A stretch of DNA of 64,000 nt from Candidatus Baltobacteraceae bacterium. Its GTDB lineage: Bacteria > Vulcanimicrobiota > Vulcanimicrobiia > Vulcanimicrobiales > Vulcanimicrobiaceae. The position numbers were made by a program, and so were the translations under genes. The notes beneath the pieces are model-generated. The model was given only the letters and a program-made list of their open reading frames with translations, made no database searches and was not told the origin of the DNA. The stretch is from the NCBI GenBank assembly GCA_036489885.1, contig DASXEW010000003.1:1178001-1242000 (forward strand). The letters are read 5' to 3'. Numbering within the stretch: the first letter of the stretch is position 1; each line of letters starts with the position of its first letter. Of this stretch, positions 54,179 to 64,000 are shown one piece after another.

Positions 54179-55581
54179 ACGCGCACGCTGCTCTCTTGAT
54201 CGATTTCGGCAGCACGTACACGAAGCTGCGCGCCGTCGATCTCGACGAGGCTCGCCTGATCGGAACCGGTCAAGGTCCCTCGACCGTGCGCACCGACATT
54301 CGCATCGGAATGCGCGCGGCGCTGAGCGACCTCGAGGCAAAGCTGGGCGCACTTCCGCGCTTTCGCTACCGCCTTGCGTCGAGCAGTGCGGCGGGCGGCT
54401 TGCGTATGGTGACGATCGGTCTCGTCCGCGAGCTGACCGTCGAAGCCGCGCGCCAAGCCGCGCTCGGCGCCGGCGCAAAGCTGGTCGGAACGTTCACCAA
54501 CAAGCTCACGCGCAGCGACGTCGAGGCGATTGACGCGCTTGCGCCCGACATCATTCTTCTCGCCGGCGGAACCGACGGCGGGAACACCGAGGTCGTCGTC
54601 CACAACGCGAAGATGCTGGCGCAGATCAAGACCGATGCGCCGATCGTCTACGCCGGTAATCGTGTCGCAGCCGACGATGCGCGCGAGCTTCTCGCCGGGC
54701 GCAGCTTGACGGTCGCCGACAACGTGATGCCCGAGCTCGGGAAGCTTGCATCGGAATCGGCGCGCGATGCGATTCGCCAAATTTTCATTGCGCGCATCGT
54801 GCACGCCAAGGGAATCGATCGCGCGCAAGAGATGTTCGACGACGTTTTGATGCCGACGCCCGCCGCCGTCATGGAAGGCGCGCGATTGCTCGCAGACGGC
54901 GCCGGCGGCGAACCGGGACTCGGCGAGCTGCTCGTCGTCGATCCCGGCGGCGCGACGACCGACGTTCACTCGATTGCAAGTGGCGAATCGAGCAGCGGCG
55001 CGATTCAGAAAGGCATGCCCGAGCCGCGCATCAAGCGCACCGTCGAAGGCGATCTCGGCATGCGTCACACTGCGGCCTCAGTCGTTGAAGCAGCGGGCGT
55101 CGAGCGGATTGCGCAGCAGGCAAACATTTCCGTTGCCGGCGTCGGCGCAATGCTCGAGCGCATCGCCGAGAACGTCGAGATGATTCCGCAAACGCCGGCG
55201 GAGCATGCCTTCGACCGCGCGTTACTTGCAACGGCGATTGAAATTGCGGTACGGCGGCACGCAGGAACGGTTGAGACCGTGTACACCACGATGGGACCTG
55301 CGACGGTTCAGTACGGCAAGGATCTCACACGTATCGAGTTCGTCGTTGCGACCGGCGGAGCGCCGATCCATCTCGGCGATCACGATGCGCTGCTCGAAGC
55401 CATGCGTTCGGCGCCTTCGGATCCACGCTCGCTGCGTCCGCGCGCACCGCATCTGTACCTTGACCGCGACTACATCTTATACGCGATCGGTTTGCTCGCC
55501 AGCGTCGATCCGCAAACGGCGCTACGCCTTGCGCGGCGTTCGATCACGCCGGCCGATCGCGCGAAAGAAGTCGCGCAGTGA
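54175..55581 (+). CDS. Glutamate mutase L-like reactivating factor
   Basis: 468 residues of the ASKHA (actin-like ATPase) fold: [17 protein letters not shown] (phosphate 1), [30 protein letters not shown] (phosphate 2), VVATGGAP (adenosine). GlmL/MutL proteins act as chaperones exchanging damaged cobalamin in glutamate mutase. There is only one L gene for the two E/S pairs. ATGA and GTGA overlaps with its neighbours. Confidence 0.9.
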
Positions 55582-57059
55582 GCACCGTCGCGCAAACACT
55601 GCTCTCGCAAGAACGGATCGCGGACGACGTGTTCGCCGCGATGCGGCGCGAAAATCTCGCGCGCTGGCCGACCGGCGCGGGCGTCGATATCGACGAGGCA
55701 GTCGCGTACCACAAGGGCATGCCCGACCACCGGCGCTTGGCCGGCGTTTTGCGGCGCGCCGACGCGGAGAAGCGAACCCTAACTCAGCCGCGCGGCGGTT
55801 TCGGTACCTTCGAGCTGCAGAAGAACCTCATGCAGATGCTCGATCGCGAGGGGCTCGCCGATATCGTCCCGACGACGACCGACAGCTATACGCGCAACGA
55901 ACATTTTGAACAGGCCCAAGAAGGCGTCAACGAATCCGAACGGCTCGGACGTTCGATGCTCAACGGCTATCCGATGGTGAACTACGGCGTGCCGACCACG
56001 CGCAAGCTGATCGAAGCCATCGAAAAACCGGCCGTCATGCTGACCGGGACGTCGATGCCAAAACTCACCGGCGAGATCGGATTTGCTGCAGGCTACAACG
56101 GCTACCTCGGCTCCGGAATCGCGTACACGGTTTCGTACACGAAAGAGCTTTCCGTTGAGCAAGGCATTCGCAATTATCAGTATCTCGACCGCCTCGCGGC
56201 CGAATATCTCGCGCACGGCGTCGAGATCCACCGCCGCCAGCCCGGATTTTTGACGGGAACGAACATCCCGCCGTCGATTGCGATCGTCGTTTGTATTCTC
56301 GACATGCTGCTCGCGATGGCGCAGGGCGTTCGCAACTACGGCCTCGAGCTCGGGCAGACGCTGCATCTCATTCAAGATGCGGCGGCACTCGCGACCTGTC
56401 GCGAGCTGTGCGAGGAATATGCGCGCAAAGCCGGCCACGCGGACACGTTCACGCCAGTAACATCGTTGCATTGGATGGGCGCGTGGCCGCACGATGAAGC
56501 GCAAGCTGCCGCAATCGTCTCGTACGGCGGAACGCTGGCTGCGATCGGCGGCGCGGTCAGCGTGACGACCAAGAGCGTCCACGAAGCCTTCGGGATTCCA
56601 ACGCCGGAAGCAAACTGCGAGGCTTTGCGGATGACGCGCATGGCGATCTATCTCGCGCGCAAGATCCGGCTCGAGGGGCTTCCCGAATACGAGTTCGAAC
56701 GCGACCTGATTCGGCGCGAGGTGCGGCCGATCGTCGATCGGGTGCTCGAGCTAGGCGAAGGCGACGTCGCCAGTGGAACCGTTCGCGCGCTCGAGGCGGG
56801 GGTTCTCGACATCCCCTGGTCCCCGAACCGGTTCGTTCGCAGTCGCGTCATGCCGGCGCGTGACGTCGACGGCTACTTGCGTATTCTGGATGCCGCGGCG
56901 ATGCCGTTTCCGAAAGACGTGCTCGCGGTGCACGAAGAGCGTCTGCGAAAACGTGCCGAGGCCGAGCACGTCGCATATGGACGCGACCTCGCGGTGTCGA
57001 GCGTCTACGAGCTCAGCGAGCCGATCGCGAAACTGCTTCCGTCCGAACGTAATCGTTAA
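55578..57059 (+). CDS. Glutamate mutase E-like catalytic subunit, copy 2
   Basis: 493 residues from a GTG overlapping the L stop. Full-length match to methylaspartate mutase epsilon (RWPTG, TQPRGGF, DSYTRNEHFEQA, SMLNGYPMVNYG, LHWMGAWPHDEAQA, GVLDIPWSPNR). Relative to C. cochlearium GlmE as recalled, Arg66 (R72), Arg100 (R106), Tyr177 and Tyr181 are kept, but Arg149 is Leu155 and Glu171, which holds the substrate amino group, is Leu177. Suggests a mutase for a substrate without the amino group. A bare dicarboxylate is possible; unproven. Confidence 0.88.
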   Translation: MSTVAQTLLSQERIADDVFAAMRRENLARWPTGAGVDIDEAVAYHKGMPDHRRLAGVLRRADAEKRTLTQPRGGFGTFELQKNLMQMLDREGLADIVPTTTDSYTRNEHFEQAQEGVNESERLGRSMLNGYPMVNYGVPTTRKLIEAIEKPAVMLTGTSMPKLTGEIGFAAGYNGYLGSGIAYTVSYTKELSVEQGIRNYQYLDRLAAEYLAHGVEIHRRQPGFLTGTNIPPSIAIVVCILDMLLAMAQGVRNYGLELGQTLHLIQDAAALATCRELCEEYARKAGHADTFTPVTSLHWMGAWPHDEAQAAAIVSYGGTLAAIGGAVSVTTKSVHEAFGIPTPEANCEALRMTRMAIYLARKIRLEGLPEYEFERDLIRREVRPIVDRVLELGEGDVASGTVRALEAGVLDIPWSPNRFVRSRVMPARDVDGYLRILDAAAMPFPKDVLAVHEERLRKRAEAEHVAYGRDLAVSSVYELSEPIAKLLPSERNR

Positions 57060-60148: not shown

Positions 60149-61097
60149 CCTTCGAGCCGCCGGCAAGGCGGCAAGCGATCTGGAACGTCTGCTTCACGCC
60201 GAGCGACTGCGCGATGCCTCGACCGGCGATGTCGTAGGCCGTTCCGTGACCGGGAGTCACGACGGGGAATGGGAGACCGCCCATGAGGGCGACTCCCTTC
60301 CCAAACCCAAGGAGCTTCATCGCAATTCCGCCTTGATCGTGATACATCGTCACGACCCCGTCGTACGAATGCGCCTGCGCACGTACAAACACAGAATCAG
60401 GCGGGAACGGACCGTCTACGTCAATGCCGAGTTGGCGGGCGTCGGCGATCGCCGGAGCAATGCTCTTGATTTCTTCGTCGCCGTAGAGGCCGCCGTCACC
60501 GGCGTGCGGATTCAATCCGGCTACCGCGATTTTCGGCTTCGTCTTTTTCGCGGGGGCAATGGTCCGATCGAGGAGTTGGATCGATTGCAGCACATTTTCT
60601 TTGGTGATCAGGTCAGGCACGTCACGAATCGAAGCGTGACCTGTGATGCGCGACATCCACATCGGTTCGAGAACGTAGATCCAGTTCGTATAGCCTTTGA
60701 AATCCAGTTGGGCGCAGAAAAACTCCAGATCGTCGTTTTCGCGTAGGCCGCCCAGATGCATCGCCTCTTTGTTTACCGGTGCGTAGAGAATTGCGTCGAT
60801 CTCGCCGCGCTGCGCGGCTTGAATCATTTGCTTCCAGGTGTCAAGGACTTCAGAACCGGCAGTTGAGCTTACGCGTGCCTCACCGGCGCCTTCGGAAGGC
60901 CGCGATTTTGAAACGAATCGGGAAACCGCGGCTTTTGAAACGTTTGCGACCCGCTGTCCGAATTCGAGTACGGCGGGATCTCCGAACAAGACGATCTTCC
61001 CAATCCGATCGAGGTCGGGTTCTGCGAGAAAACGTGCCGTGATTTCGGGACCGATTCCATGTCGATCTCCCATCATCACGCCGATCGTCGGGGTCAT
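60129..61097 (-). CDS. pdxA: PdxA-family (4-hydroxythreonine-4-phosphate dehydrogenase-like) enzyme
   Basis: 322 residues. Family signs: MMGDRHGIGPEI (usual GDPAGIGPE), PVNKEAMHLGG, RITGHASIRDVPDLI, GLNPHAGDGGLYGDEE and YHDQGGIAMKLLGFGKG, with the metal histidines. PdxA uses NAD to oxidatively decarboxylate a beta-hydroxy acid phosphate; relatives in catabolic loci act on 4-phospho-threonate/erythronate or phthalate-type intermediates. No kinase gene adjoins. It probably serves this pathway rather than B6 synthesis. It overlaps the tctC2 stop (TAATG). Confidence 0.88.
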   Translation of the reverse strand: MTPTIGVMMGDRHGIGPEITARFLAEPDLDRIGKIVLFGDPAVLEFGQRVANVSKAAVSRFVSKSRPSEGAGEARVSSTAGSEVLDTWKQMIQAAQRGEIDAILYAPVNKEAMHLGGLRENDDLEFFCAQLDFKGYTNWIYVLEPMWMSRITGHASIRDVPDLITKENVLQSIQLLDRTIAPAKKTKPKIAVAGLNPHAGDGGLYGDEEIKSIAPAIADARQLGIDVDGPFPPDSVFVRAQAHSYDGVVTMYHDQGGIAMKLLGFGKGVALMGGLPFPVVTPGHGTAYDIAGRGIAQSLGVKQTFQIACRLAGGSKVSVSLR

Positions 61098-62056
61098 TAC
61101 GCTCCCTCAATTTCTTGTATCTGCTGCTGCGATCTCCGGTAGAAGGCCGGGACATCTTTTGCAGACACGTAGCTGTCTTTGGCAGACCAGGTGTAATCCA
61201 TAAATTGCTGATAGTCAGCCGATTTATAGACGCGAGCAAACGCGTCGGATAAGAACGCAACGATGCGCGGGTCCGTCCCCGCCTTTACCACGAAGGAGCG
61301 CCAGAACAATGGTGCCACCTTGTAGCCGGCCTCGATCGCGGTCGGTACGCCCGGCATCTGGGGAACTCTCTTCGTGTCGAACACCATCACCGGCCGCATC
61401 TGTCCGCCCTCGATGTAGCGGCGAAGGTTGCCGTCGGGCTCGGTCATCAGATCGACCTGATTTCCCAGGAGCGCCGCGTAGCGTTCTCCGGGTTTCGCAA
61501 ACGGAATCACCGTAAGTTTCACGCCCCTGCGGGCCAAGAATTTCGTGAGCAGATCTTCACAGCTGCCGAACCCGTCGATCGCGATTTTGATCTGCGTCGT
61601 TTTGGAGGCTTTCTCGAGATCCGCCCACGACTTGTACGGGCCGGTCGACGATACGAAATACGTGTACGGCTGACGATTCATCACCGCCAGCGGCGTGATG
61701 TCGCTCATATGCCACGCGGCCGAAGTCTTCGACGTCATGTTGCCGACGAACGTGTCCACGATGAACACGGCCATCGTGTAGCCGTCGGCGTCGCTGCCGA
61801 CGAGCTTAACCATGCCGTCGTTACCGTCGGCGCCGGGCACGTTGATGACTGGGACCGACGTCCCTTTCAGGACGTCTTGCAGAGATTTAGCGACGGCACG
61901 TCCGACCTGATCGGAGCCGCCGCCGGGTCCCCACGGAACGATCAGCGTGATCGGACGGCTTGGAAATTCATCTGCTGCGCGTGCAATTCGGGGCGCGGCT
62001 ACGGAAGCTGCGCCGAGCGCGCCGAGCATGCTTGTCGCGAACGAGGTTCGGTTCAT
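61097..62056 (-). CDS. TctC-type periplasmic solute-binding protein, copy 2
   Basis: 319 residues from an ATG with a GAGGA site. Nearly identical over the N-terminal third to copy 1 (SMLGALGAA, then FPSRPITLIVPWGPGGGSDQ, and VINVPGADGNDGMVKL), and more diverged afterwards. It likely shares TctAB with copy 1 but binds a different acid. Operator copy 3 lies in its leader. It forms a two-gene operon with pdxA. Confidence 0.9.
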   Translation of the reverse strand: MNRTSFATSMLGALGAASVAAPRIARAADEFPSRPITLIVPWGPGGGSDQVGRAVAKSLQDVLKGTSVPVINVPGADGNDGMVKLVGSDADGYTMAVFIVDTFVGNMTSKTSAAWHMSDITPLAVMNRQPYTYFVSSTGPYKSWADLEKASKTTQIKIAIDGFGSCEDLLTKFLARRGVKLTVIPFAKPGERYAALLGNQVDLMTEPDGNLRRYIEGGQMRPVMVFDTKRVPQMPGVPTAIEAGYKVAPLFWRSFVVKAGTDPRIVAFLSDAFARVYKSADYQQFMDYTWSAKDSYVSAKDVPAFYRRSQQQIQEIEGA

Positions 62057-62086
62057 AGGTCCTCGCAGTTCTGCCGGTAGGGCAGC

Positions 62087-62109
62087 ATTTGTCAAGTTCC
62101 ATGACGAAT
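62087..62109. promoter_or_regulatory. Regulon operator, copy 3, before tctC2-pdxA
   Basis: On the minus strand ATTCGTCA (62109-62102), 7 bases, TGACAAAT (62094-62087). Same arms and spacing as copies 1 and 2, with flanks shared mostly with copy 2. It sits about 30 bases before the tctC2 ATG. The 128 bases between it and the end of the next gene (62110-62237) hold no supportable gene. Confidence 0.65.
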
Positions 62110-62237
62110 CTTTCTTCCGTGGTACCACGACGAGCACTTGCCGAAGAACGCAAGCGCTCGCGCTCGACGCCGTGGTTCCAGCGCTTATCTCAAAACGCGT
62201 GGTTCGATAAGGGATTCGCGCGGGCGCTATACGCGCG

Positions 62238-63389
62238 TTACTCTTGACCTCGCGGCACGATCGTATCTAAGTAATCCGTCCGGCCGGCTGCAATCAATTG
62301 TTGCTGTGCAGATCGCAAGAGCTTTCCGGCCTCCGTCTGCTGGAAAAACCACGATTCCGTCGCGCGCGCTTCCGGCACATGATCGGCGAGCGCGAGCGCG
62401 GCCTCTTCGTAATACGCGCGGACGTCGAGCGCGGCGCGATGCGGCTCGCTCGGCAGCCCCGCATCGTCAGGTGACGTGCCGGCCGCGATCTTTAAGAAGG
62501 CTTCGAGCAGCGCCGGGATCGTTTCGACGCCGCCGGTTATCCCAACCGACGTGCGTCCGCTGCGCTTGAGCTGACGTTCGTATGCGGAGCGCAGCGCGCG
62601 CGCTTCGTCGATTACCGAAGACGTCGCTCCATTGAATGACGGCGGCAGCGTGCACGTCATCGGCGTGTCGGTGGCGTCTGCGATGCGCTCGGGAAAATCT
62701 TCGAGGATCGGACCCTCTGTGCTCGCGAGCAATCCGAAGGCTGCCATGATAACGCTGCGCTGAAACGCTGCATCGTTTGGTTTTCCGAGCGGACGCCCGA
62801 ACGGAAATTCGCAGTACAATGCGCGCGGCGGTTTGATGCGCTCCGTGTGACCGCGCACGGACGAAAGCTGAACGGTCGCGAGCCCTTGTTGTTCGAGCAC
62901 GTGTGCGAGCGCACCACCTGTGCGCGTGCACATCGGTCAAGCTCCGGTCAGTAGCACCACGCTTACGCCGTCGTCGCGCAGCAGCTTGGCGGCTGCGGGT
63001 CCGGTGTCCAGACGAATCGTCGAGAGCGTATCGTGCAGAGCGCCCATGAATGAAAGATGCCGTGGCGCGACGCCGCCGATGATGCCTTCGGCCGCAAGCT
63101 CTTCGAGGCGGTCGATCGGATAGAGCACGTTGATGTCGCTCGTAAAGCCGGTGCGATCGAAGTTGAGACTCCAATGCGCCATGCGGAAGGCGCGCTGGGC
63201 GCGCGGGAGTACGCGAAATGTTTCCTCGCCTTGATTCCAATCCGCGTGACCGTCGCCGACGAGCGCGCCGGTCGTCACGATCGCTACCGTCGCTTGCGAT
63301 AGCCGCGGCGGTACGGTGAACGCGGTCGTCGCAAATTCGAGGACGGGCATCTGTGCGGCGTTTGCGCGCGTTTGCGCGTCAGAGTTCAT
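62238..63389 (-). CDS. Selenoprotein of the GrdB/PrdB reductase family (UGA = Sec)
   Basis: One gene of 383 residues if the in-frame TGA at 62939-62937 is read as selenocysteine (residue 151). Upstream part: PVLEFATTAFTVPPRLSQATVAIVTTGALVG, then DTGPAAAKLLRDDGVSVVLLTGA; then U-P-M-C, then TRTGGALAHVLEQQGLATVQLSSV and PRALYCEFPFGRPLGKPND (seen in parts). This is the layout of selenoprotein B of glycine/betaine/D-proline reductases, with the redox motif U-x-x-C. Neither piece alone is complete. A SECIS-like hairpin follows the UGA. It starts 2 bases after the permease stop. Confidence 0.8.
62909..62925 (-). promoter_or_regulatory. SECIS-like hairpin after the UGA
   Basis: Transcribed sequence GCGCAC-AGGUG-GUGCGC forms a perfect 6-bp stem with a 5-base loop. 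It begins 12 bases after the UGA, so the loop starts at base 18. The E. coli fdhF SECIS presents AGGU at the same distance. This is the element that bacterial SelB needs to insert selenocysteine. Confidence 0.65.
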
Positions 63390-63391
63390 GT

Positions 63392-64000
63392 TCAGCGAGC
63401 TTCCCGCCACCACGGCAGCGCCCAACGCATGAGGAGCAGCAAGACCTGATCGAACGCTAGGCCGAGAAAGCCGATCGTGACCATGCACGTAATAATGATG
63501 TCGGTGCGCAGAAAGTTGCGCGAGTCCCACATCAGAAATCCGAGGCCGGTTCGTGCCCCGGTGATCTCGGCGGCGACCAGCGCCATCCACCCGATGCCGA
63601 AGCCGACGCGCAGGCCGGTGAAAATCTGCGGCAGTGCGGCATTCCACGCGACGCGAAACAGAATTGCGCTTTCGTTGGCGCCGAGGCTGCGCGCCGCGCG
63701 AATCATCTGAAGATCGACGGAACGAATTCCCGCGATCGTGTTGATCAGGACCGGAAAGAACACCGCGAGAAAGATAATGAACTCATTTTCCGTATTGCCG
63801 ACGCCGAACCATAAGATGCCGAGCGGAATCCATGCCAGCGGCGGCATCGGCCGCAGCATCTCGGTCAAAGGAATCATCTGATTGTAGAAGCTGCGCCACC
63901 AACCCATCGCCATGCCAAGCGGAATCGCGGTTAGCGCTGCGGCTATGAATGCGACCATCTCGCGCTCGAAGCTCGCCCACGCCTGAATTCCGAGCTCGCC
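63392..64000 (-). CDS. SsuC/TauC-type ABC transporter permease (5' end off window)
   Basis: At least 202 residues; the frame is open to the right edge. BPD_transp_1 permease with the coupling segment ARSLGANESAILFRVAWNAALPQI (EAA loop) and several hydrophobic helices, followed by GARTGLGFLMWDSRNFLRTDII as in nitrate/sulfonate/taurine permeases. It may partner the NMT1/SsuA-type binding protein at 44.6 kb or another encoded outside. The selenoprotein gene follows 2 bases after its stop, linking the two. Confidence 0.88.
   Translation of the reverse strand, partial: GELGIQAWASFEREMVAFIAAALTAIPLGMAMGWWRSFYNQMIPLTEMLRPMPPLAWIPLGILWFGVGNTENEFIIFLAVFFPVLINTIAGIRSVDLQMIRAARSLGANESAILFRVAWNAALPQIFTGLRVGFGIGWMALVAAEITGARTGLGFLMWDSRNFLRTDIIITCMVTIGFLGLAFDQVLLLLMRWALPWWREAR

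Follow-up and report, generated by a model that had tools for sequence, protein, structure and literature searches.

A complete long-form PrdB-like selenoprotein gene lies on the minus strand at positions 62238–63389 of the window (the whole 64,000-nucleotide stretch analysed). Its 383-residue product is, judging from the sequence and its relatives, almost certainly a single selenoprotein in which the UGA at codon 151 is read as selenocysteine. This conclusion is supported by the selenocysteine machinery of the host, by the presence of Sec or Cys at the site in relatives, and by a covarying SECIS hairpin behind the UGA, in agreement with the original prediction of a selenoprotein hidden by an in-frame UGA.

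Gene structure and the in-frame UGA

Translation of the minus-strand frame from 63389 to 62238 gives one gene of 383 codons with a sole internal TGA, codon 151 (62937–62939, minus strand). The surrounding residues read LLTGA-U-PMCTRTGG, so that the two halves proposed to be joined by TGA do share a frame and the right half supplies the second residue of a UxxC redox motif, Cys154 (62928–62930, minus strand). This Cys is invariant in two alignments, one of which includes annotated PrdB. The assignment of codon 151 as the U of U-P-M-C rests on the distribution of Sec, Cys and Ala among the homologs in our tree, and on alignment with U151 of the annotated PrdB proteins of Enterococcus raffinosus and Peptoclostridium acidaminophilum. 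The UGA is thus found where PrdB places its selenocysteine, as had been proposed.

Standard ORF calling splits the frame into two pieces, as expected by the original prediction. These two frames, together with an ATG at codon 153 right behind the UGA, are what could be cited for a pseudogene, a sequencing error or two separate short proteins divided by a normal stop. We consider this extremely improbable, since TGA occurs at the same codon in independent genomes at 35–52% identity, and in those genomes the sequence flanking the TGA is conserved on both sides along with the hairpin.

Selenocysteine machinery

The host genome (3.48 Mb, 96% complete) encodes adjoining SelA (E 8.8e-130) and SelB (E 7.8e-87) proteins as well as SelD (E 3.0e-112). 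It also contains a tRNA-Sec with anticodon UCA (74.8 bits, confirmed by ARAGORN), and the complete set of selA, selB, selC and selD is therefore present. The host SelD gene (G000:C3:303143-304069) has an in-frame UGA of its own in the motif SGUASKV, which brings the genome to at least two predicted selenoproteins. SelA was present in eight of nine genomes holding relatives of the gene; it was not found in the draft genome G098, which has a UGA homolog.

A genome-wide code change that gives UGA another amino acid, or simple readthrough, would also leave the frame open, as it stays open whatever the TGA means. Yet TGA is the stop codon of the coupled permease itself, the genome has tRNA-Sec, SelB and the SECIS hairpin, and relatives substitute Cys rather than Trp at the site. 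We regard such a change as scarcely credible compared with selenocysteine insertion.

The SECIS hairpin

The 6-bp stem with loop AGGUG that had been proposed behind the UGA is present at 62909–62925 (minus strand; GCGCAC-AGGUG-GUGCGC, 5-nt loop), identified as a SECIS apical hairpin by folding and comparative pairing. The stem begins 12 nt and the loop 17 nt after the UGA. The folding energy of the lone window hairpin is unexceptional (z -0.94, with 34 of 200 shuffles as good) and was set aside as evidence; the case for a SECIS element rests instead on comparative pairing, covariation and a null of synonymous recodings. Among 20 long-form sequences, 95.8% of the stem cells are paired, with changes on both sides in 21 cells, and the covariation score is 0.459; shuffles gave 0.222, and slid partners did not exceed 0.222.

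When 46 distinct long-form genes were considered, 97.8% of stem positions were paired, and the first or second loop base was G in 97.8% of the sequences. The null, in which the protein was kept and codons were drawn from the same genes, gave 55.0% pairing with a maximum of 62.7% over 500 recodings. In two genes with Ala at the site the hairpin is only 50% paired. Pairing far above the recoding null and its decay in the Ala genes indicate that the hairpin is conserved in its own right as long as the gene has its UGA.

The site in relatives

Matches to the gene were found in 17 of 98 genomes (the host and its relatives), most of them with one TGA. Nearly all relatives of the host lack the gene, and only one (L025) has a full-length homolog, at 36% identity. 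A scan of GTDB contigs gave seven relatives, from Acidimicrobiia, other Actinomycetota, Chloroflexi, a deltaproteobacterium, an alphaproteobacterium and Pseudomonadales, and all seven have TGA at the aligned codon. Full-length relatives in other phyla thus retain the UGA at identities of up to 52%.

Two further samples were drawn around the Chloroflexi relative (400 genomes) and the Acidimicrobiaceae relative (395 genomes). Every full-length match in the former has TGA, as do 58 of the 60 matches in the latter, where the long-form profile matched strongly in 57 of the 395 genomes of that class. No match to the gene was found in phages. The gene clusters in the tree with genes from the Acidimicrobiia and Chloroflexota samples and this, together with its near-absence from relatives of the host, suggests horizontal transfer, as far as can be read from sequence comparison.

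Across the 85 tree rows that remain when the two annotated PrdBs of the same tree are left out, site 151 is UGA in 75, Cys in 8 and Ala in 2. The alignment suggested as a check on the prediction thus shows Sec or Cys in 83 of the 85 rows. A codon-level reading gives TGA or TGC at the site, save for the two genomes with Ala. The natural Cys versions occur in short forms, and no Cys was found at the site within the long-form clade. In the two full-length homologs with Ala in place of Sec (L138 in G844 and L139 in G808) the SECIS hairpin is gone and the remaining protein is kept, so Sec is dispensable for some members. For the clade as a whole, the near-perfect conservation of the SECIS element and the retention of UGA imply that selenium matters for its function.

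Two other arrangements were observed among the relatives. One contig (G639:C27, locus L101) carries three long-form copies within about 5 kb, and at four loci (L026, L029, L032 and L033) short PrdB-like selenoprotein genes adjoin a peroxiredoxin-like gene whose peroxidatic position is encoded by UGA (FTPVUTSQ).

Relationship to PrdB and GrdB

The best named family for the protein is PrdB (E 2.2e-30). Its score against the PrdB model (TIGR04483) is 105.8 bits, about a third of the equivalog cut-off of 300. The half bearing the UxxC scores 26.1 bits against the Pfam family GRDB (PF07355; cut-off 22), and the N-terminal half aligns to the last 140 positions of this model, above the Pfam cut-off. 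Against TIGR01918 the protein reaches 41 bits, below that model's own cut-off of 65, with matches only to profile positions 206–385. All nine of nine long-form members matched the PrdB, GrdB, GrdF and GrdH models.

With PrdB the window protein shares a core domain, Sec at the aligned position and the UxxC motif, which reads UGTCHR in PrdB and UPMCTR here. It differs from annotated PrdB in the alignments by about 150 additional residues at the C-terminus. The likeness to GrdB, GrdF and GrdH lies in the match of the N-terminal half to PF07355; unlike these, the window protein has no counterpart to the first 200 profile positions of GrdB and lacks the second Cys of the GrdB motif UxxCxxC (UPMCTRT). 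In a maximum-likelihood tree the long forms make up one clade (support 99/94) with members from Acidimicrobiia, Chloroflexota and Pseudomonadota, and annotated PrdB falls outside it. The one row scored as short within this clade (L051) is a gene that ends at a contig edge.

In proline and glycine reductase a pyruvoyl subunit, PrdA or GrdE, activates the amine, and the characterised enzymes depend on it. The pyruvoyl family (PF09338, PrdA/GrdE) had no match in the 96% complete host genome or in 97 relatives. This absence carries weight because the PF09338 model recognises PrdA and, in a different phylum, detects the family in 6 of 148 genomes.

Could the protein still be PrdB, the Sec subunit of a D-proline reductase, or else the GrdB of a glycine-type enzyme, paired with a pyruvoyl subunit? 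PrdB is its best named family, and its Sec and Cys align with those of annotated PrdB. Against this stand the score far below the equivalog cut-off, the position of annotated PrdB elsewhere in the tree and without the C-terminal domain, and the missing PF09338 partner, the canonical operon being prdC-prdA-prdB-prdD. We judge such a subunit role to be very improbable. The low PrdB score, the added C-terminus, the separate clade and the lack of PF09338 instead indicate a member of the PrdB/GrdB superfamily that is neither PrdB nor GrdB. The earlier GrdB/PrdB label thus holds at the superfamily level, and it does not hold for either of the two named proteins.

Proteins of this superfamily with the same motif have been seen before beyond the classic Stickland fermenters. 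From the Sargasso Sea, 42 selenoprotein sequences described as proline reductase PrdB have been known since 2005 (PMC1088965), and the Global Ocean Sampling data gave 235 PrdB-type sequences with UxxC, assigned to pfam07355 (PMC2398784). As far as the descriptions in these two papers go, they draw no distinction for a long form with a C-terminal domain. Homologs from Roseomonas and Haematobacter are already annotated as 'glycine/sarcosine/betaine reductase selenoprotein B family protein'. A description of the long form did not turn up in the literature searched on selenoproteins of Eremiobacterota, SAR202 or Acidimicrobiia, of which our coverage was partial. Within the family of proline/glycine-reductase selenoproteins, the long-form clade is a widespread branch that is apparently uncharacterised.

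Structure prediction

An AlphaFold2 model of the core and the C-terminal domain was obtained with a pLDDT of 85 and a pTM of 0.87. In the model, residues 28–240 or thereabouts form the PrdB/GrdB-like alpha/beta core. The UxxC motif begins the helix 152–167 right behind the strand 144–148, a location that would be the expected place of a reactive selenolate/thiol pair. The C-terminal part, residues 233–383 (62241–62693, minus strand), is modelled as a helical bundle and is the region absent from annotated PrdB in the alignments.

A fold search of the PDB with the full model gave no match at E ≤ 0.001, and a sequence search of the PDB gave no credible relative. Matches to the fold of the core (best Z 8.2) and of the C-terminal domain alone (best Z 4.0) were not interpretable and were discarded.

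Genomic neighborhood

Directly upstream, and extending past the window, lies an ABC transporter permease that is TauC/SsuC/SaoP-like by profile matches (63392–64000, minus strand). The selenoprotein gene starts 2 nt past the permease stop codon (63394–63392), which makes translational coupling probable. The operon of the permease continues beyond the window, where its ATPase and SsuA-family binding protein are encoded; a gene for a short-chain dehydrogenase (SDR) likewise precedes the permease there. Downstream, on the same strand as the selenoprotein gene, a TctC-type solute-binding protein gene (61097–62137, minus strand) is possibly part of the same transcript and is not linked to it by function. 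A methylaspartate mutase E gene (55578–57059, plus strand) is located about 5 kb away. The mutase locus is thus close by, as had been noted, and since it is on the opposite strand it does not belong to the same operon.

The NCBIfam families SaoA and SaoP are transporter families named alongside a selenoprotein SaoL. Of the coupled ABC genes at L011:5393-6949, the ATPase has SaoA as its best match (248.6 of 360 bits) and the permease has SaoP as its second-best (156.9 of 295 bits). Both remain under the equivalog cut-offs for an SAO transporter.

The ABC, SDR, PdxA, TctC and mutase genes are not found together again in the surroundings of 24 relatives. Clustering of the neighbors at 43 loci likewise gave no constant neighbor, only broad families in a minority of loci; several of the large clusters were antisense frames over the gene itself. 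The conserved neighborhood was therefore dropped as a clue to function. The predicted coupling to a sulfonate-type ABC permease is real in this genome and is not conserved in relatives, so the link to the transporter may be local.

The neighbors of the relatives include SDR, enoyl-CoA hydratase (named by eye from sequence), luciferase-like and dehalogenase genes. A haloalkane-dehalogenase-like hydrolase adjoins one of the closest relatives (L090, 52% identity), and another (L092) lies between two type II haloacid dehalogenases that score above cut-off. These neighbors, and the general nature of UxxC as a redox motif, would fit a selenoprotein of this same type that serves in detoxification (reductive dehalogenation, or peroxide or disulfide reduction) and not in substrate catabolism. 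However, the dehalogenase neighbors occur at single loci, two in all, the genes scanned next to the window gene included no dehalogenase, and no neighbor family is constant. A role in detoxification is therefore somewhat unlikely, if well within consideration.

Proposed mechanism and implications

On the comparative evidence, the ribosome would read UGA151 as Sec through SelB and the hairpin directly behind it. The Sec151 selenolate may then attack a small substrate at an electrophilic bond. Cys154 would resolve the intermediate by forming a Se-S bond, and re-reduction of the enzyme could come from a donor of the thioredoxin type, which is our guess. Since the genome yielded no PrdA or GrdE, the reaction would have to proceed without the pyruvoyl subunit, and the C-terminal helical domain may assume part of its role. 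We give this mechanism of a stand-alone selenolate reductase built on Sec151 and Cys154 an even chance. In the host the substrate might be delivered by the coupled Tau/Ssu-type ABC importer, a suggestion that we hold at slightly less than even; among the local genes the importer gives the best clue to the substrate.

A broader reading, which we put forward tentatively and with a little less confidence still, is that the long-form clade is a separate family of Sec reductases with the PrdB/GrdB fold, in which a C-terminal helical domain of their own replaces PrdA/GrdE and makes a pyruvoyl partner unneeded. The gene illustrates how ordinary stop-codon annotation can mask a complete enzyme, in the present genome and in many others. 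The missing pyruvoyl partner in this genome raises the testable question of what a selenolate of the GrdB/PrdB type reduces when there is no pyruvoyl cofactor. If the reading of a separate family is true, selenium-dependent reductive chemistry would reach beyond amino-acid fermentation, into Acidimicrobiia, Chloroflexota and related bacteria.
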